From assembly GCA_018389105.1 (NCBI GenBank), contig JACATO010000311.1, positions 367,501-431,500 of the forward strand: a stretch of DNA of 64,000 nt, in the 5' to 3' direction. Below are positions 6,066 to 62,499 of the stretch, piece after piece (position 1 is the first letter of the stretch; each line of letters begins with the position of its first letter). This DNA is from Nautilus pompilius. Lineage: Eukaryota > Mollusca > Cephalopoda > Nautilida > Nautilidae. The position numbers and the translations under genes are program-made. The notes below the pieces were generated by a model. The model saw only the letters and a list, made by a program, of their open reading frames with translations. It ran no database searches and was not told the DNA's origin.

Positions 6066-6662
6066 GTGGGCAACTTGTCACAGGTAACTGTGAACTTTCA
6101 TTGGGCGGATCTTTCCGCGTCGCTGTCCTTGACAGTCAAATATGCATGATACTTTCATTGGGTGTTGTGTAGGACTACGCGAAAGGATGCCAAAGTGGTG
6201 GATTTTCCCGTCGTTTTTTGTGATCTTCTCGATCAGCCAGTGCGAGTTCTGGGTGAGTAATTCAGCAGCAGTCGCAGGAAGGCGGAAAGATCTTCCCATG
6301 TGTGTGTGTGGGGGGGGGGGGGGACGTGTGGCCATGTATCCCTCCGCACAGTAGCTGCGTTCTGGCGGGTGACAGGTGGGGAGATGTGCGGAAATACCAC
6401 CACCACCACGACCTGGTACAGCTCGGTGACCTAATGGATCGAACCCGTGAACCTGTTTAAGATAGCGAATGGTCAAAAGCAGCAGGGCGCTGTTGTGACC
6501 CCCCCTACCTCCCTCCCGGGCTCTCCAAGTCCCTAGATGTTGAAAGTAGTGCATTTATTATCATAGCAAGATTCTCGCCGCCTCTTCCAGTTTTGTCTAT
6601 AGGCTGGCGTTAAACGACAGTATTAGCCGTAATCGATGAACTCCTTTCTGATTGTACTTCAG
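6066..6662 (+). other. Intron with G-run and one exon-like decoy
   Basis: A 597 bp intron. It holds a (TG)n/G13 run at 6300-6323 and an exon-like open stretch at 6173-6252 whose phases do not fit (see findings). No other feature is seen. Confidence 0.5.
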
Positions 6663-9111
6663 GGCGATGCCGGTGGAGATCGACGAGAAGACCAAGGAAA
6701 CAACCACTCACAGCGTAACGGCTGAAATCTACATCCACGAGCGATTTCACGGCGGTGACCGGGCGCGCGCGTCGAAGCAGAAATCGCAGCTGAGGGCGAT
6801 GGCCCTGGCTGGAAACGGGGTCGGGTCAGGTGGTGTAGCGAGTGGTCAGCAGCGAACCAAGGCGGTGGTGCTTACCGGTGTGCTGGATCCGCGGACCGGA
6901 CAGAGGATTAGCGTGCTCAAGGCGTTATCCACGGGTGTGGTCAATCAGGTGCGAGGCACCTACAACAACCCCGACGACGCGTCGAGAAGTATATCCATCC
7001 CCGAGGCGATATGCCAGGGTCTCGTGGCCGTGGACCACTTCGGGAATCTTTCCGACGGGGCAGCTGCCAGTTCCCAGAACCAGATAACGAACGGCGGATG
7101 GGATCACGACGAACACGTTCCACGAGCCAGCAGAATCGACACGACTATTTCTCCGGTGGCTGGGGTACTCGACCCGCACAGCGGCAACATCGTCGGGATA
7201 ACAGAAGCCATCAACGGTGGCATTATTAAGCTCAAGACAGGAAAATATATCAACCCGATTACGGGTGAAGAGATGTCCATTCTCGAGGGGATTCAGAACG
7301 GTTACATCGTTGTGGATCCTGATGTTATAGAAAACTCGAAGAGAGAAAGCGTTCGCACCTGGCTAGAACTGGAGGATGCGCGATACGTAGTTTCTACGGT
7401 GACCGATCCCTCAACAGGGGCGGAAATTTCGCTGAAACTATCGATTAGCGATGGAATCATTGACACCGCGAATGGAATGTACAGGAATCCGCTGACCGGG
7501 CACACAATGATCATCTCGGAAGCTATAAGGCAAGGCCTGGTGTTGGGGAGACCCTATGATCCGCTGATGGACAAAGAAAGCCGGGACGTGTTGACCATTA
7601 AGGAACTTCAAGTGAAGCAAGAAAAGTACGTGCCATCGGACTCCGAGACGACATCTCCGAACGGGGATATCATGGACGGACTAAAACTGGACACCAACCT
7701 TGTCATGTATGACAAGATAAGTCAGAAGTTGGACACTAGCTTGAGGGGCATCAAGGAACCGACTACTGCGGCTGACTTGACCATTCTGGATGCCTTCCAG
7801 AAAGGTATCCTCCATTTTGACACGGCTGAATACGACCACCTGGACGGAGAAATCTCCCCTCTCCCCGTAGCCTCGGTGAAGGGTCTTGTGCAGCCGAACG
7901 TCCTCAAGGAAATTCTGACCGTTTATAACGAGTCTAGTGTAGGGGAACTGATCGACAGAGGCGTGTTCGACTCTGATACTGGGCTCATTACAGACCTCAA
8001 GAACGATCAGACATTATCGCTGCACGCCGCCGTGTCTCGGGAAATCGTTAATCCGGAAACTACGTTCTTCTACGAAGTGCCCACCCACAAAATAATGAGT
8101 CTGTCCAGCGCTATCGAAAATGGGCGATATGACGTTGACACCGGGAGGTACGTGAAAACGGACAACCAGGAGGAACTTTCGTTCACTGAAGCTGAGAGAA
8201 ACGGACTCATAAAGACTCACATCAACCCCGAGAAAATCTCGGAACAATCGGAAACACTGTCACATTTGCGTGGTCTGGTCAGTGTTGATGTTAAAGGCGT
8301 CAAGGTACCGCAAACCGGACAAGTAATCAGCATCGGCGACGCCATTAGATCTGGGGTTCTTAACATTCCACAAGCCGCTTATGTAGATGAAAAAGAGCAT
8401 ATACACCAGTCTTTGATAAGCGCGGTAAAAACGAAAAAGATCAACTCCGAGGCGGCCATGGAATTGTTTTGTGCGATGGATAAGTTGTCTCTCCAGGCAA
8501 CAATGGTGGCGAAACAAATAAACCCCAACACCGGAAAGTTGACAACGGCAGCCGGATCGAAGCCTATAACAATCAAGGATGCAGCAGATAAAAGCATAAT
8601 TAATCCCGATTATATATTTTTTGTAGATCACGAGTCGGGAGATATTAGCACGTTGGGATCGCATGCGGCCAAAGGCATATTTGATCCAAGAACGGGAACA
8701 TTCCAACATCCAAAATCTGGAAAACCGTTGTCTATTGCAGCAGCTATTGAAGAAGGTTTGATTAACCCTCGAATTAGCCCGGAAAGGTACGTGGAGGTAA
8801 GCTCCACTCTAAAAGAGCTGATCGACGACAAAAAGGTGAACCCCAGAAACACTACCTTTATGATCCCTAATGGGCAGAGTATGTCGCTCCGTGAAGCTAT
8901 GGCCAATGGCTTTTTGACAATGAACTCCAAAGTAAAAGTGGACCCGAATACGGGTAACGTGCACCTGGCTTCGGATGAGGAGGTAGTCAAAGTGTTGGTA
9001 CAGGTGAAAGAGAAGGCGGACTGGCTGGCCGAAGTGGAAAAACTGTTAGTAACTCAACAGAAACCAAGCGAGAAGCTAGACTCTTTGAAGGACCAACAAC
9101 GGGACCATACG
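6663..9111 (+). CDS. MACF1/DST: Spectraplakin exon 5 of window: plakin-repeat block
   Basis: This single 2449 nt exon encodes about 816 residues, phase 2 in and phase 0 out. Donor ACG/GTAAGT is at 9112; the open frame runs on to 9300, but that tail is intron. After a short leader (about 65 residues) come many plakin-type repeats of about 38 residues: GVLDPRTGQRISVLKAL near 6880-6930, GVLDPHSGNIVGITEAI near 7165, INPITGEEMSILEGI near 7251, NPLTGHTMIISEAI near 7488, VPQTGQVISIGDAIRSG near 8310, FDPRTGTFQHPKSGKPL near 8683. Such repeats usually bind intermediate filaments in plakins; in invertebrate spectraplakins they occur in junctional isoforms. The last about 45 residues (KADWLAEVEKLL) start the first spectrin repeat of the rod. 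The exon may be alternatively used, as in MACF1 and Shot. Confidence 0.92.
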
Positions 9112-11330
9112 GTAAGTGGCGTTAACTGGTCCGAAACAGGATGGCATGGACCACATGATGTAGAGAAAGGTAGCACCTTTGTTTGTTCTAGAGGCTCCAG
9201 AATTGATTACATTTTATACTACTGGTGGTTAGGTCCCCTGACTATTCGACCAGTCGCAATGTTTGATAGATGGTTTCCCTTAACGCAGACATTTAAATGA
9301 ATGCTGATTGTCTGTAACAAGAACTATCGCGAACGAGTGATTTACTAGCCAATGAGCTAACAATAAGAACCCGGGTATTGTGAACAATAGGTAATGGCCA
9401 CTTTGAAGGACGAGACTGTAGCCGAGTTTACACCGTTCATTTCGTTTCTATTCTATTCCATTCCCTCGGGTAACATCTACGAGGGTACTAGAGCTTACCC
9501 GTCGCGGTAGTTCGGATGAGCCCCTCGCAGACTTGAGAGGAGGTTAAAATCACCAGAAACGCGCTAATCGGGTCGCGCGTTCAGGCGGATGGTAGGTAAC
9601 CCAGGGTAAGACTTCGATCGATCCGTACAATTTGAAATCTGAAACCCCCCCATCTTTCATGATCCAACACACGTCAATTATCTGGAAATAGCTGGAATGT
9701 CTAAGGGACACTGGTGATAAAATAAACGAAATGCCAACGTACATTAGCAATATATAATGACCTTTGGAACAAAGCAGATAAATAGGCCCTATCTTGCTCA
9801 GTCCGACCCCCTCCAGACATTGTATATTTTCCTTTGGATAATTCTTGCCGTTCAGAATGGGATTATTATTAACTCCTACAGAGTGCGGCGGGATAACGCA
9901 GTTTAGAAGAACGGGACACGGTCTGACCAGGAGATAATTACCAGTCATCACGGGCTATTTGGAAGATAAAAAAAATATAGGAGCTGCCCGGGCAAGGGTG
10001 CGATGAATTTGCTCGGTGCTTGTTTTCGAACCAGGGTGCGTTAATTATTCTATCATATTAGCGCTCGAACTTTAAATAAATAAATCTATTATTATTATTA
10101 TTATTAGTATATCAACTTCATAAGTGGTGGGCGAACTGATGTGCTAACTTGAATCCCTGCTCATTGACTCTTCGTTCTTCACTGTTCTTCTCAATTTAAA
10201 ACTTAACCGACGGCAGCCATCCTAAGTGTAATGAAGAAGCCCGTCGTCAGCTGTGACATGGACGGAGACAAAAGGAGATGCAACCTAACAACGTTCTACC
10301 TCCAAAGATGGTGATGCGTTAACCCTCTCGTGGGCGGAAGAACGCGGCACCGGAAAAAAAAAAAAGCAAAATCCTGAGAATTCCGAGACATCTCCGCCAG
10401 TGAAATGCTGCACATTTTCCTCGCACAGCTATTAGGAACAGTGACCGGGTAATTATTAGCCGTTAGGTCCTCTCTATCTCTCCCCCTTATCAAAAGAGAA
10501 ATTCCAAAGTCTAATCAGGAATGTACTATTATGGTATACAATTCTTTACGTGACCTTATGAATTATTTTTTTACACCTAAAAGCCCGGGTTAACCGCACA
10601 CAAGCACTGTGCCGGTATTGGTGACCCACTCCGCGTTTTGTCAGGCCCAGCCGCTCAAGACAATAGACGGGCTCCGACTAACGTCTTGCCGACAGATGGC
10701 AGCAAAGTCAGGACTGTTCCACTGCATCAGAATGTCGTCGCATGGCTGTAAGTTAAAAAACAAACAACAAACAAAAGTTTGTTTTTTTTTCCTTTTTCCC
10801 CAACTCGGTTCCCAAGAGCGAATGTTATACTTGGTTTGGCTCATAAGTAAATAAATGGAGCGCGATACCGAAAACAGTGATTAAGTAAATACGAATTACT
10901 GCCACGCCAATGATGAAGGAAATGTCGACTTTTTCTTCCTAATGTCTCGATTCGTTCCTTGTTCCGGTAGAATTTTTTATAAATACCCGTCGATTGACAA
11001 ACGACAGAAATACAAACTCTCCAGTTGGTGAAATATTAGTTTCCCGACACCGAAGTTAGTTGCGCTGCAGAACACTAGTAACTGTTTTGAGGTTTTTGGT
11101 TCTCTAATTTTTTTTTTTTTTTTTAGTTTTGGACGAGTAAAAGAAGCATCGGTACAAATTCGTAGGTAGCTAAGAACGGGATGAAGGGGGAGGGGCACTT
11201 CGAAGGGAGATAATCACTGTCCTCGAACCATTCCGTATGCTCTCCTGAAACTCGCACTATCCTGTTGGAAAATAAAAAATAAAATATAACGCACACGCAT
11301 CTGTACTTTACTTATCTTTCTTTTTTTCAG
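9112..11330 (+). other. Intron, CpG-rich, no recognised element
   Basis: About 2.2 kb. An (ATT)n microsatellite lies at about 10088-10107, with A and T runs at 10353-10365 and 11108-11124. An exon-like stretch at 10645-10747 has good borders but the wrong length (see rejected). Nothing else is supported. Confidence 0.5.
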
Positions 11331-30581: not shown

Positions 30582-31400
30582 GTGTATCCTGGCCTGACGG
30601 AACTCAACCTCCTGCAAGACTTCATTGTCACGCTACCTCCTCCCCCACCATGGGGTCGCCCACCTCCAGCGCCCATTTTGCTGACACCGGCTGACAAATT
30701 GATGCCAACCTCCATACAGCTTGCAAGAGCTGTCCAGACCATCAAAGATGCCAGCGAAATTGACATTCAACTCTACACTGATGGATCTACTATGGAAGGT
30801 GTCAGGAACGGCGGAGCTGGCTTAGTGGTCCTACAGGGGATGGACCTCATCCGCCAATGGCGTGCCCCAACAGCTGCGCACAGCAGTTCATACCTGTCCG
30901 AAAAGGTGGCACTACAAACCGCCCTCAAATGGTTAGAGAACCAAGATGACTGGCATTCTGCGACTATCATCTATGATTGCAAATCATTAGTCGAAGCCAT
31001 TGGCAATCTGCGACAACCAGATTCTTCTGTGCTGGCGCTGTAATCGACCATCTCCCAACTACTAACAACCAAGGAGGTACACACAGTCTGGGTACCCGGT
31101 CATTGCAACCTGATGGGGAACGACATGGCAGATAAACAGGCAAGGTTGGGCTCAGTCGCAACACAAGTCAAAAAGGCTGTAGATGTGTCCACATGCCAGG
31201 CTATCATCCGCCGACTGGATCGACGCCAGCCAACACAACACGCCAGACTGCAATCACTGCAGACAAGCACGCCGAGCGAGGAGAGTCTATTGGAGAAATC
31301 AGAACTGATGGACCTCATCAGGTTTCGGTCCGGGAATCATCCAAAACTTTGACGCTGGCTATGCTTCAAAGGCAAAGCCAAGACCAACATCATCTGGTTC
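30582..31400 (+). pseudogene. LINE RNase H domain and C-terminal tail, broken
   Basis: RNase H motifs are seen in order: LYTDGSTMEG near 30772 (first Asp), SSYLSEKVALQTAL near 30887 (Glu), TIIYDCKSLVEAI near 30964 (second Asp), then VWVPGHCNLMGNDMADKQA near 31087-31140 (His and last Asp). A TAA at about 31041 lies between the third and fourth motifs. The domain marks the I/Ingi/R1-type LINEs that carry their own RNase H. The C-terminal tail is frame-broken, and the element ends in (CAA)n. Confidence 0.87.
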
Positions 31401-42364: not shown

Positions 42365-42559
42365 CTCATCAAAGATGACATTAAAAGCCAGGAGAACACC
42401 TGTAAAAAACTGAACAAAACTGTGGATGATGTGGTGGTTCGGACAGGTGATAATGACTCTTCTCTTAGCAGCAAAATGACTGCCATGAACGAGCTTCTCC
42501 GTGATGTGCAAGTCAGCACACGGGACAAAGAGAACAAATTGCAGGACACACTGAGGGAG
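42365..42559 (+). CDS. MACF1/DST: Spectraplakin exon 20 of window: spectrin repeat
   Basis: A 195 nt exon, phase 0/0, acceptor TTTATGTTAG and donor GAG/GTAAGC. It encodes LIKDDIKSQENTCKKLNK through LQDTLRE, helices B and C of a repeat. Confidence 0.89.
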
Positions 42560-42677
42560 GTAAGCTGCATGGACAGATTTGTTTCTGAAATTTTTCTGTT
42601 AATACTTTAACATAAATGTAGTGCTGGCTTTTCTTTTCTATTCCATGCTTTAATTAGTTTCACTAATATGCTTTCAG

Positions 42678-42806
42678 GTGAAGAAGTTTATAGGTGAGGT
42701 GGATGACACGCTGCACTGGATTGGTGAACTAAGGATGGAACTGAAATCCAAGTCTCCTTTTGGAGCTCTTCCAGAGACAGCTTGTTCCCAGTTGGAAACT
42801 TTCATT
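42678..42806 (+). CDS. MACF1/DST: Spectraplakin exon 21 of window: spectrin repeat piece
   Basis: A 129 nt exon, phase 0/0, acceptor GCTTTCAG and donor ATT/GTAAGT, after a short 118 bp intron. It encodes VKKFIGEVDDTLHWIGEL through QLETFI, helix A with the conserved Trp (LHWIGELRMEL). Confidence 0.9.
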
Positions 42807-42993
42807 GTAAGTGCCCAGGAAAAGAACCTCCAAAACTGGGACAAAATTTTCTGAACTCTTACTATTTTTCTTAAAATTTTGCGACTGAGTTGCACATCAG
42901 AATATTAATCTTAAATAGATGATGGCATCTGGCTATTATGCTCGATCCCTCGGTAAATCTGTGATTAAGTCAAAGCCCTCTTTACTTTTGTAG

Positions 42994-43164
42994 AAACGTT
43001 GTGATGCAGTGGAAACTAAAGAAGTCACTGTCAAGTCACTACTACTCAATGGGCAGGATATGGTTGACCGGTGCAAGCCTGAAGATGTCCTTCAGCTTAC
43101 TGAGAAACTTCGTAAACTTAAGGAACGATGGTATGAAACTAAGAATCGGGCACTCCGTAGAAGA
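42994..43164 (+). CDS. MACF1/DST: Spectraplakin exon 22 of window: spectrin repeat
   Basis: A 171 nt exon, phase 0/0, acceptor CTTTTGTAG and donor AGA/GTAAGT. It encodes KRCDAVETKEVTVKSLLL through RALRRR, helices B and C, with the helix-C Trp in LKERWYETKNRA. Confidence 0.9.
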
Positions 43165-43455
43165 GTAAGTAATTTAAAAAAAATATTTTTAGCCTGACTT
43201 TAGTGACTTAGTAATTGTTACAAGAGTTTATATTTGCCTTGAAAGTTTCTACTATTGTCTTTTAACCTCAAAGCTATACAAAAAATAATTAAGTTTAAGC
43301 ATCATTACTAAATTTAAACAAAAATGCAATATTATGTTGTTTTTTCATTTTTGTTTCTATACTTTTTATAAATGATTTTAAAATTTGTAGACAGTAAAAA
43401 AAAGATTATAAAATGTTTACAACCTTTAATAATTTAAATTTGTTTTTACTGATTA

Positions 43456-45003
43456 CAGGTGCATCTCAAAAAATTAGAATATCGTGGAAGAGTTCAATAT
43501 TTTTTGTCAGTTATTTCAGAAAGTGAAAACTGTATATATTCTAGACTCATTATGTGTAAACTTAAATGTTTCAAGCATTTTTTAATTTTAATTTTGATAA
43601 TTACGGCCTACAACTAAAAAAAAGAAAAAACGTATCTCAAAATATTAGAATATTCCATTTCGAGTTTGAGTAAATCACTATTTATGCAGTATAAATACCA
43701 CAAATCTCAGTCTGGTTCAGTACACACAACCACAATCATGGGGAAGACTACTAACTTGACAGTTGTCCAGAAGACACTCATTGACCACAAGGAGGGTAAG
43801 CCACAGAAGGTGATTGCTGAAAGGGCTGGCTGTTCGCAGAGTGCTGTATCAAAGCATATTCATGGAAAGTTGACTGGAAGGGAAAAGTGTGGTAGGAAAA
43901 GGTGCACAAGCAAGAGAGATGACTGCAGCGTTGAGAGGATTGTCATGCAAAGCCAATTCAAGAACTTGGGGGAGCTTACAAGGAGTTGACTGAGGCTGGA
44001 GTCAGTGCATCAAGAGCCACCATGCACAGACGTGTCCAGAAAATGGGCTACAAGTGTCGAGCCACTCCTGAACCAGAGACAATGTCAGAAGCATTCTTAC
44101 CTGGGCTAAGGAGAAAAAGAACTGGACCGTTGCTCAGTGGTCCAAAGTCCTCTTTTCAGATGAAAGTAAATTTTGCATTTCATTTGGAAATCAAGGTCCC
44201 ACAGTCTGGAGGAAGAGTGGAGAGGCACAGAATCCAGGTTGCTTGAAGTCCAGTGTGAAGTTTCCACAGTCAGTGATGATTTGGGGTGCTATGTCATCTG
44301 CTGCTGTTGGTCCACTGTGTTTTATCAAGTCCAAAGTCATTGCAACCATCTACCAGGAGATTTTAGAGCACTTCATGCTTCCGTCTGCTGACAAACTTTA
44401 TGGAGATGCTGATTTCCTTTTCCAGCAGGACTTGGCACCTGTCCACAGTGCCAAAACTACTAGTAACTGGTTTGCTGACCATGGTATTACTGTGCTTGAT
44501 TGGCCAGCCAACTCGCCTGACCTGAACCCCATAGAGAATCTATTGGGTATTGTCAAGAGGAAGATGAGAGACACCAGACCCAACAATACAGACGAGCTGA
44601 AGGCTACTATCAAAGAAACCTGGACTTCCATAACACCTCAGCAGTGCCACAGGTTCATCGCCACCATGTCACACCACATTGATGCAGTGATTTGTGCAAA
44701 AGGAGCCCCGACCAAGTATTGAGTGCATAAATGAACATACTTTTCAGAAGTTCGACATTTCTATATTATAAAACCTTTTTTTTTTTTAAATTGATCTTAT
44801 GAAATATTCTAATATTTTGAGATAGTGGATTTTTGATTTTCATGAGCTGTCAGCCATAATCATCAAAATTAAAACAAAAAAAGGCTTTAAATATTTCACT
44901 TTATGTGTAATGGATCTAGAATATATGAAAGTTTCACTGTTTGAATTAGATTACGGAAAAAATGAATTCTTCCACGATATTCTAATTTTTTGAGATGCAC
45001 CTG
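43456..45003 (+). mobile_element. Tc1-like DNA transposon, near-complete, vertebrate-type
   Basis: The element is 1548 bp, flanked by TA (43454-43455, 45004-45005). Its terminal inverted repeats are identical over the first 36 bp, starting CAGGTGCATCTCAAAAAATT. A second, related inverted pair with TATCTCAAAATATTAGAATA lies inside at 43633-43654 and about 44803-44824, an IR/DR-like layout. It encodes a DD34E transposase (43738-44722) broken only by small frameshifts. From memory, the TIR and the coding region closely resemble a Tc1 family abundant in teleost fish and other vertebrates. It is inserted sense to the host gene between exons 22 and 23. Confidence 0.95.
43738..44722 (+). pseudogene. 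Tc1 transposase (DD34E), frameshifted
   Basis: Start MGKTTNLTVVQKTLIDHK, then paired-type helix-turn-helix (IAERAGCSQSAVSKHIHG) and a second HTH part (ASRATMHRRVQKMGYKC). The catalytic triad is intact: Asp in FSDESKFCISFG at 44159, Asp in FQQDLAPVHSAK at 44429, Glu in DLNPIENLLG at 44534, with 34 residues between the last two. The reading frame shifts near 43980 (a lost base in the ELHKEW-type region, giving a stop at 43987), near 44058 and near 44097, then stays open to TGA 44720. Usual length is about 340 residues. ENLLG replaces the more common ENLWG. The copy cannot make a full protein, but the decay is slight. Confidence 0.93.
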
Positions 45004-45005
45004 TA

Positions 45006-45723
45006 TATTACTAAACATTTAAAAGGATACTGCTTCATTAGTAAAAACTTATATTTCTAATAACTTAAATAAATTCCCTTAAAATTAATAATATGGGTAA
45101 ATTTGACTTTTAATATGTATTGGCAATATCATAACTCTTCTGTCAAGAAAACCATTAAGAAATCTTTGTGTCATAGTTGTGCATCATATCACTACTATTT
45201 CTAAAAACAAAATGTCAGCTTCCAAGTCACATTATCTCGTTTGTTTCTTATATGCATTAATAATTTCTGATTGGTAACAGTAGCATTGACACCAGAATCA
45301 TAATTACTAGCAAACTGTGTGGACTTAGTTGTTCTTTTAATAAGATGCAGAATTACTGGGCAGGAAGTCCTAAGATATACACCTAGATGCCCACATATCT
45401 TCAAAATAATAGTATTTTTCAAATATTTACCATTTCTGTTTGAAATTTACTGCACCAATTTTAATGGGAAAATTCTTACATATATTTGCAATGTGGCTGG
45501 TAAAAAGTACTTTTGTGCATATAACATACTCCATATTTACAAACTTTAAAAGCATGTCTTCATGTCTTATATATTATATCAAAATTGACAAATGCTGGGA
45601 TAGTCTCTTTATCTTCGAGAATTTTGAACGTTTCTCTTGAGATGATGGTGCAGCCTTGTACTAAATGAGTCAAAAAGCTTTGTTGTTTCATATTGAGTTA
45701 TTGTTCTGGTTTGTCATCTGCAG
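45006..45723 (+). other. Intron remainder after the Tc1
   Basis: About 720 bp of AT-rich intron. No further element is seen. Confidence 0.5.
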
Positions 45724-45879
45724 GACAAAATGAAGGAACATCTTAAGAATGTTGAAGACTTCCACAGCACCCTGAAAGACTTCACTGATTGGCTAAACAC
45801 TACAGAGACAAGCATGCGTGGGTTCAAGTATCCAAGCAAAATTGTTGAGAAAGTGGAAATTCAAATACAACATCACAAA
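45724..45879 (+). CDS. MACF1/DST: Spectraplakin exon 23 of window: spectrin repeat piece
   Basis: A 156 nt exon, phase 0/0, acceptor TCATCTGCAG and donor AAA/GTAGGT. It encodes DKMKEHLKNVEDFHSTLK through IQIQHHK, ending one repeat and giving helix A of the next with the conserved Trp (DFTDWLNTTET). The exon ends at the K/EF border (QHHK/EFSQ). Confidence 0.91.
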
Positions 45880-46168: not shown

Positions 46169-46375
46169 GAGTTCAGTCAAAATGTTGAGGCTCATGCTGA
46201 GAAAATGCAGAAACTAGACAGGACAGGAACATACTTGAAATACTTTGGACGCAAACAGGACACCATCTACATTAAAAACCTGCTGGTAGGTATTGGACTT
46301 CGCTGGAAAAAACTGCTGCGCCGGACAGATGAACGAGGACGGTTACTTCAACAAGCATATTGTGAGGATACTAGG
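46169..46375 (+). CDS. MACF1/DST: Spectraplakin exon 24 of window: spectrin repeat
   Basis: A 207 nt exon, phase 0/0, acceptor CTTGTTTTCAG and donor AGG/GTAGGT. It encodes EFSQNVEAHAEKMQKLDR through YCEDTR, helices B and C. The helix-C Trp is in LRWKKLLRRTDERGR. A GTAGGT inside the exon at 46286 looks like a donor, but the frame and the protein continue through it to YCEDTR; use of it would remove about 30 residues in frame. Confidence 0.9.
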
Positions 46376-52305: not shown

Positions 52306-53480
52306 AGTGTTACCCTGCATACACTTGCATGCACGTGTAGCTTCAATTTACCAAAGTGTACAAAAATAAACGCAGCAGTTAAACATGGAAGGTGCAAAAA
52401 GGTAATTGTAAGTAAGATAAAGCAAAACAAAAAATGATTGCATTCTATTTTGTTTTTATGTATAAATGAGTGCATAAGGTTATTCAGGTTACTAAATCTA
52501 AATTACTCAATGTCATCTAGTAAATCGTCATTGCCCCCTTCTTCACTGTCGTCGTGAGAGAGATCGTTGTCTTCGCCCTCATAGTCGCTTTGATCCGACT
52601 GCTCATCATCGTTGATCTCCCTCATTTTTCAAAGATACTCATCAACTTCTTTAATAATGTCATCTGGTACACAGCAGCTTTTAATAGTTTCATCATGCAA
52701 ATGCGAGTGTAAACTTTCAAGTTCATCCGTGTACTTGATATGTCCATTCTATTTGAATCTGCGCGCTATCATCTCGTCAGTTGTGACTTCCTTCCATGCT
52801 GAATCAGCCCCATTGAGTCACTGTCTCATAGGAAGCTCGTTTTCTCTTTCCTGTGCGAGTAAACTCTTTTACCCCCATCATTGAGCCAGTGATCCTGCAT
52901 TGCATTCTTGAACAGTTTGTTGATGTGTGTGTTGAGGAATTGCAGCAAAGGTGTCATTCCTGATGGAATTAACTTGGTATTGACATGATGTTTCTTTATG
53001 GTGGCATCCAGCACATCGCTTTTGTGAGACGTAGCAAAATCCATTATGAGCAATGAAGACTGTGTTGAAAAATTCCCCTGGCCATCTTGATACAAATTTT
53101 GGTACACATGTGTTATACATTAACTAGTTTGTCATTGACCCTTCTTTAGAACTAAGGACCATGACCCCTATAGGATATTTTCCTTTTGGAGCATTCTTTA
53201 GATTCTTAAATATAAGTATTGGAGGCAATCAAAATGCTTTCCATCTGTTTCCAATCCACTGCACACCTGCAGTCAGTATTGCTGTATAATGTAACTTTTC
53301 GTACCTGGTAGATATCTGATGCACTGATTTCACACCTTTGAAGTCGTATGTACGGGAGGTTGGCAGATCAAAATAACTTGGGGTTTTGTCCAAGTTCATA
53401 TAAATCCCATAATTTAAACTTTTCATGTCATCAAGAAACTGCTCACAAAGCTCAGAGGCACTGTCAGGTACTTTTTGTCT
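52305..53480 (-). mobile_element. Pogo/POGK-like DNA transposon remnant, 5'-truncated
   Basis: The minus-strand transposase reads SLNYGIYMNLDKTPSYFD with the first catalytic Asp (near 53425-53360), GVKSVHQISTRYEKLHYTAI near 53335, LPPILIFKNLKNAPKGKYP near 53220, SLLIMDFATSHKSDVLDA with the second Asp near 53055, then KLIPSGMTPLLQFLNTHIN near 52985-52930, where Asn stands in place of the third catalytic Asp. An acidic tail (DDEQSDQSDYEGEDNDL) ends at a stop near 52508. TA/CAGTGTTACCC at 52303-52315 is the likely terminal repeat on this side. The matching end is missing, so the 5' part is lost. It is an inactive fossil. Confidence 0.82.
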
Positions 53481-54390
53481 ACTGCTGTTAGCACAACACT
53501 TAACAAGTTAGAGACCACCTTAGGTAACCTTGGGAGGCAACAAATTGTCAACCTTGCTGTCCAGGGTACAGCTTTGCAAATAGAGTGTGTGCTTTTCTAT
53601 GAATCAATTTTCCACTCACATTTTTGTCCTTTTCTCTCTTCTCTCATATATATCTAACGAGTTCTGTGTCAAGAAGCAGGTATGTGGCAGCTCTATTACA
53701 CATTCTGATTCGAACTCGGGAGTTGCTATCCTTTTGGTTGATGGCACATCTGATTATATCTTGTTTACACTGCTGAAAATTCTGGCAAGTGATCTAGGAA
53801 ACAGAGCAAAAGGAATATGAACCAATTTCTAGAAGTAGAAGAACTTGTGTTGATGTATGTACGTGTGAATGTATGTTTGGGGAAGTTCATACGTGCCTTC
53901 ATTTTATGTACAGATGTTTGCTTTTAATTTCCTAGTTTATATTTTCTTTTATGTTTTAAAATTATTTTATTGCAGATTTTATAGTTGGTTTTAATTAGCT
54001 ATATATGCACAAATACATAGTTTTTAAAGAACGTTAAATAAAGAAATAACAATAATAATATAATACACAAGTTTACATACATTGAATTCTTTCACTGTTT
54101 TGCTGATATTCTCATCATTTTATTTAAGAAGATTGAGTGTTTCTCCCTTAAAATAGAGGGAAAACTGTCTTTGTGTATTATCCATCCTTTCACTGGTTTC
54201 AACTTCAGAAGCTTGGATTTGCTCAGTATTTTTTCAACAAACACAGTTCAAATATCCAATCATTGGATTAGAGCAGAAATTCATTGATTTAGGAAGGAAA
54301 AACATTTATCCAATCGCTTGATAGACAATCACAAAAACATGCAAACCAGTTTTAAGGTAAATACCTTTCCCTCTAAAAACATTACGAAAA
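53481..54390 (+). other. Intron between pogo relic and HIRAN fragment
   Basis: About 900 bp of AT-rich DNA with (AATAAT) runs at about 54048-54060. No further feature is recognised. Confidence 0.45.
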
Positions 54391-61024: not shown

Positions 61025-61180
61025 TAATGGATGGCATGGTGGTCTGGTGGGACTTCTGTGGTTGAGGACCAGAGTTTGGTTTTGTGTACTTCCCTGACAT
61101 TTGTTCTTCTCTAACCAGTCACTCCAGTTTTCTCCTGCATCCAGAATGAAAAGAATTCTCATAGGGATTTTTGATTGAGC
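61025..61180 (+). repeat. SINE-like repeat, third copy
   Basis: CATTTGTTCTTCTCTAACCA at about 61098 followed by AATTCTCATAGGGAT at about 61152 aligns with the copies at 21770 and 39685. The upstream GGCATGGTGGTCTGGTGGGA may be a diverged tRNA-like head. Confidence 0.4.
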
Positions 61181-61257
61181 TTATTAGGTCAGTCTGGGTC
61201 AGCCCAGCAGGTGCTTTTGTGCTGGCTAGAGATTATGGTATAATACCCTTCCCCCAT

Positions 61258-62325
61258 ATGTCTGTCCTTGTCTGTCTGTCTCTCTCTCTGTCCGTCTGTC
61301 CTGTCCGTCTGTCTCTGTCTGTCTGTCCGTCCGTCCTTGTCCGTCTGTCTCTGTCTGTCTGTCCGTCCGTCCTTGTCCGTCTGTCTCTGTCTGTCTGTCC
61401 GTCCGTCCTTGTCCGTCTGTCTCTGTCTGTCTGTCTCTGTCTGTCTGTCCGTCCGTCCTTGTCCGTCTGTCTCTGTCTGTCCTTGTCCGTCTGTCTCTGT
61501 CTGTCCTTGTCCGTCTGTCTCTGTCTGTCTGTCCGTCTGTCCGTCCGTCCTTGTCCGTCTGTCCTTGTCTGTCTGTCTGTCCGTCCTTGTCCGTCTGTCT
61601 CTGTCTCTCTCTGTCTGTCCGTCCGTCCTTGTCCGTCTGTCTCTGTCTGTCTGTCCGTCCGTCCTTGTCCGTCTGTCCGTCCGTCCTTGTCCGTCTGTCT
61701 CTGTCCGTCTGTCCGCCTGTCTCTCTGTCCGTCCGTCCTTGTCCGTCTGTCTCTGTCTGTCCGTCCTTGTCCGCCTGTCTCTCTGTCCGTCCGTCCTTGT
61801 CCGCCTGTCTCTCTGTCCGTCCGTCCTTGTCCGCCTGTCTCTCTGTCCGTCCGTCCTTGTCCGCCTGTCTCTCTGTCCGTCCGTCCTTGTCCGCCTGTCT
61901 CTCTGTCCGTCCGTCCTTGTCCGCCTGTCTCTCTGTCTGTCCGTCCATCCTTGTCCGCCTGTCTCTCTGTCTGTCCGTCCATCCTTGTCCGCCTGTCTCT
62001 CTGTCTGTCCGTCCATCCTTGTCCGCCTGTCTCTCTGTCTGTCCGTCCGTCCTTGTCCGCCTGTCTCTCTGTCTGTCCGTCCTTGTCCGCCTGTCTCTCT
62101 GTCTGTCCGTCCTTGTCCGCCTGTCTCTCTGTCTGTCCGTCCATCCTTGTCCGCCTGTCTCTCTGTCTGTCCGTCCGTCCTTGTCCGCCTGTCTCTCTGT
62201 CTGTCCGTCCTTGTCCGCCTGTCTCTCTGTCTGTCCGTCCTTGTCCGCCTGTCTCTCTGTCTGTCCGTCCTTGTCCGCCTGTCTCTCTGTCTGTCCGTCC
62301 TCGTCCGCCTGTCTCTCTCACACAC
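61258..62325. repeat. CTGT/CCGT minisatellite, about 1.07 kb
   Basis: The array is built from CTGT, CCGT and CCTTGT words arranged in higher-order units of about 30-36 bp. The first part (to about 61720) uses CCGTCTGTCTCTGTCTGT, the second part uses CCGCCTGTCTCTCTGT. Some units carry CCATCC in place of CCGTCC. The plus strand has almost no A, so no stop can form and long open frames appear in several frames on both strands (for example 61171-62415 plus and 62325-61189 minus). These frames are artefacts. Confidence 0.95.
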
Positions 62326-62499
62326 TCAGGCTATTGTTCCCAAGCCCTGACCATAGTTTACAGTCAAGTGCAGTGGGGGGGGGGGGTTAGACACCAACAG
62401 CAGTATTACTACTAATTGAGGTGAAAGGAAATACCTGAGCTAATCCTTTAACTCCTGCAAAATTATTTTCAGCCATCAAAATAAAAGCTTAAAAGGGTT

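Follow-up and report, generated by a model that had tools for sequence, protein, structure and literature searches.

The window, a stretch of 64,000 nucleotides from the genome of Nautilus pompilius, contains a complete Tc1-type (DD34E) DNA transposon (43456-45003) on the plus strand, lying within an intron of a host gene and in the same orientation as that gene (Table 1). The three joined exons around the insertion encode spectrin repeats (PF00435, E 3.9e-17), and the plectin-repeat exon at 6652-9297 (PF00681), together with these spectrin repeats, indicates that the host gene is a spectraplakin. The spectraplakin intron named in the original prediction, which was made from the letters of this DNA before any database search, is the setting of the insertion. 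The host had also been taken to be an invertebrate, and mollusc-type haemocyanin (PF14830) is indeed encoded in the genome. Fourteen such domains were found, seven on contig C557 and seven on contig C1362, and none of the 14 control genomes was positive. The last haemocyanin unit on C557 reached 613.6 bits against 4yd9_C and 593.3 against 1js8_A, both single-unit chains (multi-unit chains score higher only through summed units), and 486.5 against 8tnv_A; we take the three to be squid, octopus and gastropod haemocyanin, respectively. By eye, the mitochondrial COI reading also gave a mollusc-like protein, an impression that is not counted as evidence. The nautilus genome searched here comprises 727,640,739 bases in 2,558 contigs; the published genome of N. 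pompilius is given as 730.58 Mb, with a contig N50 of 1.1 Mb, and no smaller one is said to have been reported for a cephalopod (PMC8257504).

Table 1. The transposon insertion and its host gene: positions in the window.
Feature	Position	Strand	Basis
Upstream host exon, spectrin-repeat region; AG before, GT after, phase 0	42365-42559	+	
Host intron GT...AG, phase 0, holding the transposon	42560-45723	+	
TA target-site duplication, left	43454-43455	.	read at insertion junction
Tc1-type (DD34E) transposon, complete but inactivated	43456-45003	+	ends, repeats, consensus alignment
Left inverted-repeat region, ~205 bp; direct-repeat motif outer 43463-43482, inner 43634-43653	43456-43658	+	
Transposase gene remnant (family frame 334 aa; second HTH, KPLL linker, D-D-E)	43738-44719	+	
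Indels in the transposase frame of the window copy	~43784, 43977, 44059, 44094	+	alignment to family consensus
Longest open piece left in transposase remnant, the DDE_3 domain	44072-44719	+	
Right inverted-repeat region; direct-repeat motif at inner and outer position	44799-45003	+	
TA target-site duplication, right	45004-45005	.	read at insertion junction
Downstream host exon, phase 0	45724-45879	+	
Following host exon, phase 0	46169-46375	+	

The boundaries of the element are sharp. It starts with CAGGTGCATCTC exactly at 43456 and stops with GAGATGCACCTG exactly at 45003. The outer 36 bp form perfect inverted repeats, as had been read from the sequence, and are nested in a 49-nt pair with 94% identity. 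The internal second repeat pair that had been described alongside them corresponds to 26 nt at 96% identity (43633-43658 and 44799-44824). The same 20-nt motif occurs twice in each arm, at spacings of 171 and 173 nt, which is the IR/DR layout, and copies elsewhere in the genome cross-match between element positions 1-203 and 1344-1548. The TA duplication expected at the junctions is present on both sides of the window copy. TA was likewise observed on both sides in 26 of 30 end-to-end copies drawn from the 40 best-scoring copies of the genome and in 22 of 25 drawn from 40 copies with exact terminal inverted repeats (TIRs).

The consensus of the family describes an element of ~1.57 kb with a single intronless transposase frame of 334 amino acids, which carries a D-D-E triad whose second D and E are separated by 34 residues. 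Both DDE_3 and HTH_Tnp_Tc3_2 (PF01498, the second HTH) scored above the Pfam cut-offs in all three of the better copies scanned, and the first HTH of the transposase scored no higher than below the cut-off; in the remnant of the window copy, the DDE_3 domain is above the cut-off. The catalytic domain of Sleeping Beauty was the only PDB match at E≤0.01 (E 1.2e-39). The coding blocks quoted in the original prediction are present in 43456-45003, and the Tc1 identity proposed from them is supported by the IR/DR ends, the DDE_3 domain, the 34-residue spacing and the TA target. The element is a member of DD34E/Tc1 with IR/DR ends.

Slight decay had been noted in the window copy. This description holds for substitutions (K2P 0.033 from the family consensus) but not for the eight indels, which proved fatal. 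Four of them lie inside the transposase frame and three of those four are not multiples of three, and the copy is therefore unable to make transposase. The four indels in the frame rule out a live copy in the window; the copy is dead.

To the count of copies in the source genome that the original prediction called for, the 40-bp end of the element gives an answer. In a search blind to copies with more than three mismatches or with indels in the end, this pattern occurred 451 times exactly, 2,055 times when two mismatches were allowed and 2,508 times when three were, and the reversed pattern, as a control, gave 0 occurrences in the genome. A single Poisson distribution with 0.0455 changes per site predicts 458, 1591 and 460 ends in the classes of 0, 1-2 and 3 mismatches, against 451, 1604 and 453 seen. 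Extrapolation from this fit yields ~2,824 ends and ~1,400 copies.

The divergence of the copies fits one narrow young burst. Two samples of 40 copies, both biased to well-kept copies, possibly overlapping and under-counting older or truncated ones, gave mean K2P distances to the consensus of 0.0336 (0.023-0.048) for the best-scoring copies and 0.0398 (0.030-0.057) for copies with exact TIRs, the latter being the first 42 listed places minus two that were second ends of copies already included. In 35 of the 40 exact-TIR copies, over 1,450 bp of the element is covered. Because the mean pairwise distance among the 40 best copies (0.063) is near twice their distance to the consensus, the family is star-like, and the smallest pairwise distance of 0.041 indicates that there are no recent duplicates among these 40. 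An older, eroded layer of copies may exist besides the young burst. Singletons numbered 169, 192 and 164 at the three codon positions, and variants common to at least four of 40 copies numbered 21, 19 and 16; since both are spread evenly over the codon positions, decay after insertion looks neutral. In a protein search, 28 of the best 120 copies (out of 9,973 candidates) had no stop inside the match. Two arrangements among the copies were seen in passing. On contig C78, two copies 24 kb apart (L071 and L072) both end at consensus position 1371 with near-equal divergence, which suggests a local duplication. On contig C2036, identical scores were obtained for the two members of each of two pairs (427389/1341492 and 438322/1352403), whose separations are 914,103 and 914,081 bases; either a long segment is duplicated there or the assembly has joined two haplotypes.

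These data also bear on whether vertebrate DNA has simply contaminated the assembly, an explanation that had been considered unlikely at the outset and that we regard as extremely improbable. The contig that carries the window copy is 2.72 Mb long, and the exons on either side of the copy belong to one gene and are in frame. The 40 best copies are spread over 39 contigs, which range in length from 94 kb to 5.75 Mb, and the TA duplications are intact. Position in an intron between in-frame exons, together with the many contigs, rules out contamination for practical purposes.

The nautilus genome paper provides a rate of 2.77e-9 per site per year and places the split between nautilus and coleoids near 420 Ma (PMC8257504). 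With the published rate, distances of 0.0336, 0.0398 and 0.0455 convert to ~12, 14 and 16 million years, and the wave would have started ~12-16 million years ago. The family is a young, lineage-specific invasion of nautilus. This age sits uneasily with the available text of the genome paper, which reports a single ancient burst of DNA transposons without any recent expansion (PMC8257504); possibly, it is that published ancient burst which is resolved here at a finer scale. The amplification was abrupt and much more recent than the host lineage itself, which is consistent with horizontal transfer but is not sufficient to establish it. An old resident transposon lineage can also burst.

The other Tc1 elements of the genome provide a measure of how isolated the family is. 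Eight loci were taken from the 150 best HTH_Tnp_Tc3_2 matches, seven of them with long transposase frames. These seven frames are Tc1-type transposases of a length similar to the present one and form two other families (L092-L094 and L097; L095, L096 and L098), which share 40-48% amino acid identity with each other, compared with 31-36% with the present family; the eighth locus (L099), a 160-amino acid frame without a match to the present family, was left out of this range. At the DNA level, the family consensus gave no blastn match to the eight loci at E≤1e-3. The present family stands equally close to Sleeping Beauty (37.5% in the catalytic domain) and to these other families of its genome. 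The low identity and the equal nearness to Sleeping Beauty favour an outside origin, though they do not prove it. Deeply divergent Tc1 families are commonly found side by side within one genome. One contig, C307 (1.62 Mb), holds 15 of the 150 best matches and is a possible hot spot of the other Tc1 families. Base composition differs between the family frame (49.7% GC) and its flanks (31.3%). Coding DNA is usually GC-richer, and for this reason the contrast is not taken as a sign of foreign origin.

An origin by descent would mean that an old molluscan or cephalopod Tc1 element persisted at low copy number and burst in the nautilus lineage during the Miocene; any likeness to elements of fish would then reflect shared ancestry and conserved Tc1 motifs. 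That two or more further Tc1 families reside in the nautilus genome agrees with such a history, as does the report, in the available text, of TcMar-Tc1 elements in many molluscs and in all cephalopods examined (PMC8967140). Cephalopod Dfam hits in that survey were mostly to aquatic vertebrates, yet vertical descent was judged equally likely (PMC8967140). The copies, however, constitute one age class, and the eight loci compared, a small and chosen sample, include no intermediate relative. On balance, we consider descent from a resident element unlikely. Arrival in the nautilus lineage by horizontal transfer appears likely.

Like the present family, the Sleeping Beauty (SB) and ZB groups measure ~1.6 kb, with a transposase near 340 amino acids, inverted repeats near 200 bp, a TA target, a KPLL linker and a DD34E triad, and they occur in ray-finned fish and, rarely, also in molluscs (PMC9777934, PMC7913693). 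ZB elements are reported from four arthropods and from the squid Euprymna scolopes, and SB elements from the snail Anentome helena (PMC9777934). Membership of either group is ruled out. The DDE domain is ~37% identical to SB100X (79/216, or 36.6%, in copy L007; 37.5% in the consensus of the family), whereas SB and ZB are 58%-61% identical to each other in this domain (PMC9777934); ZB is set apart via SB and by the junction, which reads TAcagcgggga in ZB (PMC7913693) and TACAGGTGCATC in the present element.

Analogous features are seen in the Group 1 elements (DTSsa1 type), which occur in teleosts and northern lampreys, are recognized by near-identity (92.5%-100%) to the Group 1 consensus and resemble the present family in their thousands of copies, narrow divergence peak after horizontal transfer, mostly broken state and neutral decay (PMC3516227). 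All six Group 1 primers nevertheless matched at chance level, no better than shuffled ones, with 7-10 mismatches in the family consensus and 6-8 at best among the 40 copies, and this group is rejected. The ends differ as well, DTSsa1 and the long-repeat salmon families terminating in CAGT (PMC2198921) and the present family in CAGG. Trout Glan (PMC1192797) and Tas1/Tas2 of Anisakis and salmonids, the latter claimed in invertebrates too (PMC12441823), are likewise Tc1 elements of fish; none of the three published Glan primers and none of the seven for Tas1/Tas2 matched better than shuffled, which excludes both. An exact-type fish counterpart, if one exists, is a family other than SB, ZB, Group 1, Glan and Tas1/Tas2. 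The DNA-level closeness to vertebrate copies put forward in the original prediction is putative, and the strong likeness in end and peptide that some fish elements would show serves as a lead only. A vertebrate donor is plausible but falls short of being probable.

Other sources of sequence yielded no relative. Patterns from the TIR and from the coding DNA had 0 matches each in viral contigs, and of two protein searches of these contigs one returned an irrelevant 32% match and the other none. Bacterial genome contigs, searched for stray animal DNA, gave 86 and 33 pattern stretches, among which there was no relative. Plasmids and phages had no match to the element, nor did Rfam up to E 5, and the TIR or peptide strings were not found in the full texts of papers.

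The donor could also have been another invertebrate, for example, a crustacean, a parasite or another mollusc, with fish acquiring the family independently. Published Tc1 transfers involve fish, fish parasites and arthropods alike (PMC3516227, PMC9777934); we judge this route unlikely. The reading that we prefer, and hold to be fairly likely, is that an active founder entered the nautilus lineage by horizontal transfer and spread to ~1,400 copies in one wave, with an aquatic vertebrate as the likeliest donor. An autonomous DD34E/Tc1 element of ~1.57 kb, encoding a transposase of 334 amino acids, would have come in as an active copy, by horizontal transfer and not by vertical descent. Its spread to ~1,400 copies through TA-targeted insertion in a narrow wave, and the decay that followed, are shown by the copies themselves. 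By analogy with Sleeping Beauty, its mobility would be of the cut-and-paste type, with the transposase binding the outer and the inner repeats. The copy in the spectraplakin intron would be spliced out and harmless. A fish or other aquatic vertebrate would be the most likely single source. Nautilus feeds on fish remains. The narrowest form of the scenario, that a fish-type Tc1 element crossed from an aquatic vertebrate into nautilus during the Miocene and immediately expanded to ~1,400 copies, is put forward tentatively, its chances being a little under even.

Tc1 elements are known to cross between fish, lampreys and parasites (PMC3516227). A full-text literature search for horizontal transfer of transposons in nautilus found only one paper, whose available text contains no such report (PMC8967140). 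If the transfer is true, nautilus would join the few molluscs with documented vertebrate-type Tc1 elements, the dated burst could be related to what the animal eats and where it lives, and the published statement of no recent transposon expansion in nautilus would need correcting. If the aquatic-vertebrate source is true, the transfer would have crossed phyla and entered a genome well known for its slow evolution. The narrowness of the burst also makes every copy a dated insertion, which can serve to trace the relationships of Nautilus and Allonautilus.

Other mobile sequences were observed in the window. Frames of a pogo/Tigger-type transposase lie on the minus strand at 52829-53507, with a DDE_1 match (PF03184, E 1.1e-5) for 52829-53119. 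An expansion of 18 CENPB-domain genes is reported for the nautilus lineage (PMC8257504), and it might include pogo/Tigger-type elements. A frame at 31044-31349 on the plus strand resembles, by eye, the RNase H end of a retrotransposon, and a repetitive segment of ~1.2 kb at 61165-62412 has long open frames (359-416 amino acids) on both strands. Elsewhere in the genome, COX1 (PF00115) gave at least 117 matches, spread over many contigs and often interrupted by TAA or TAG stops, as would be expected of numerous nuclear mitochondrial copies.
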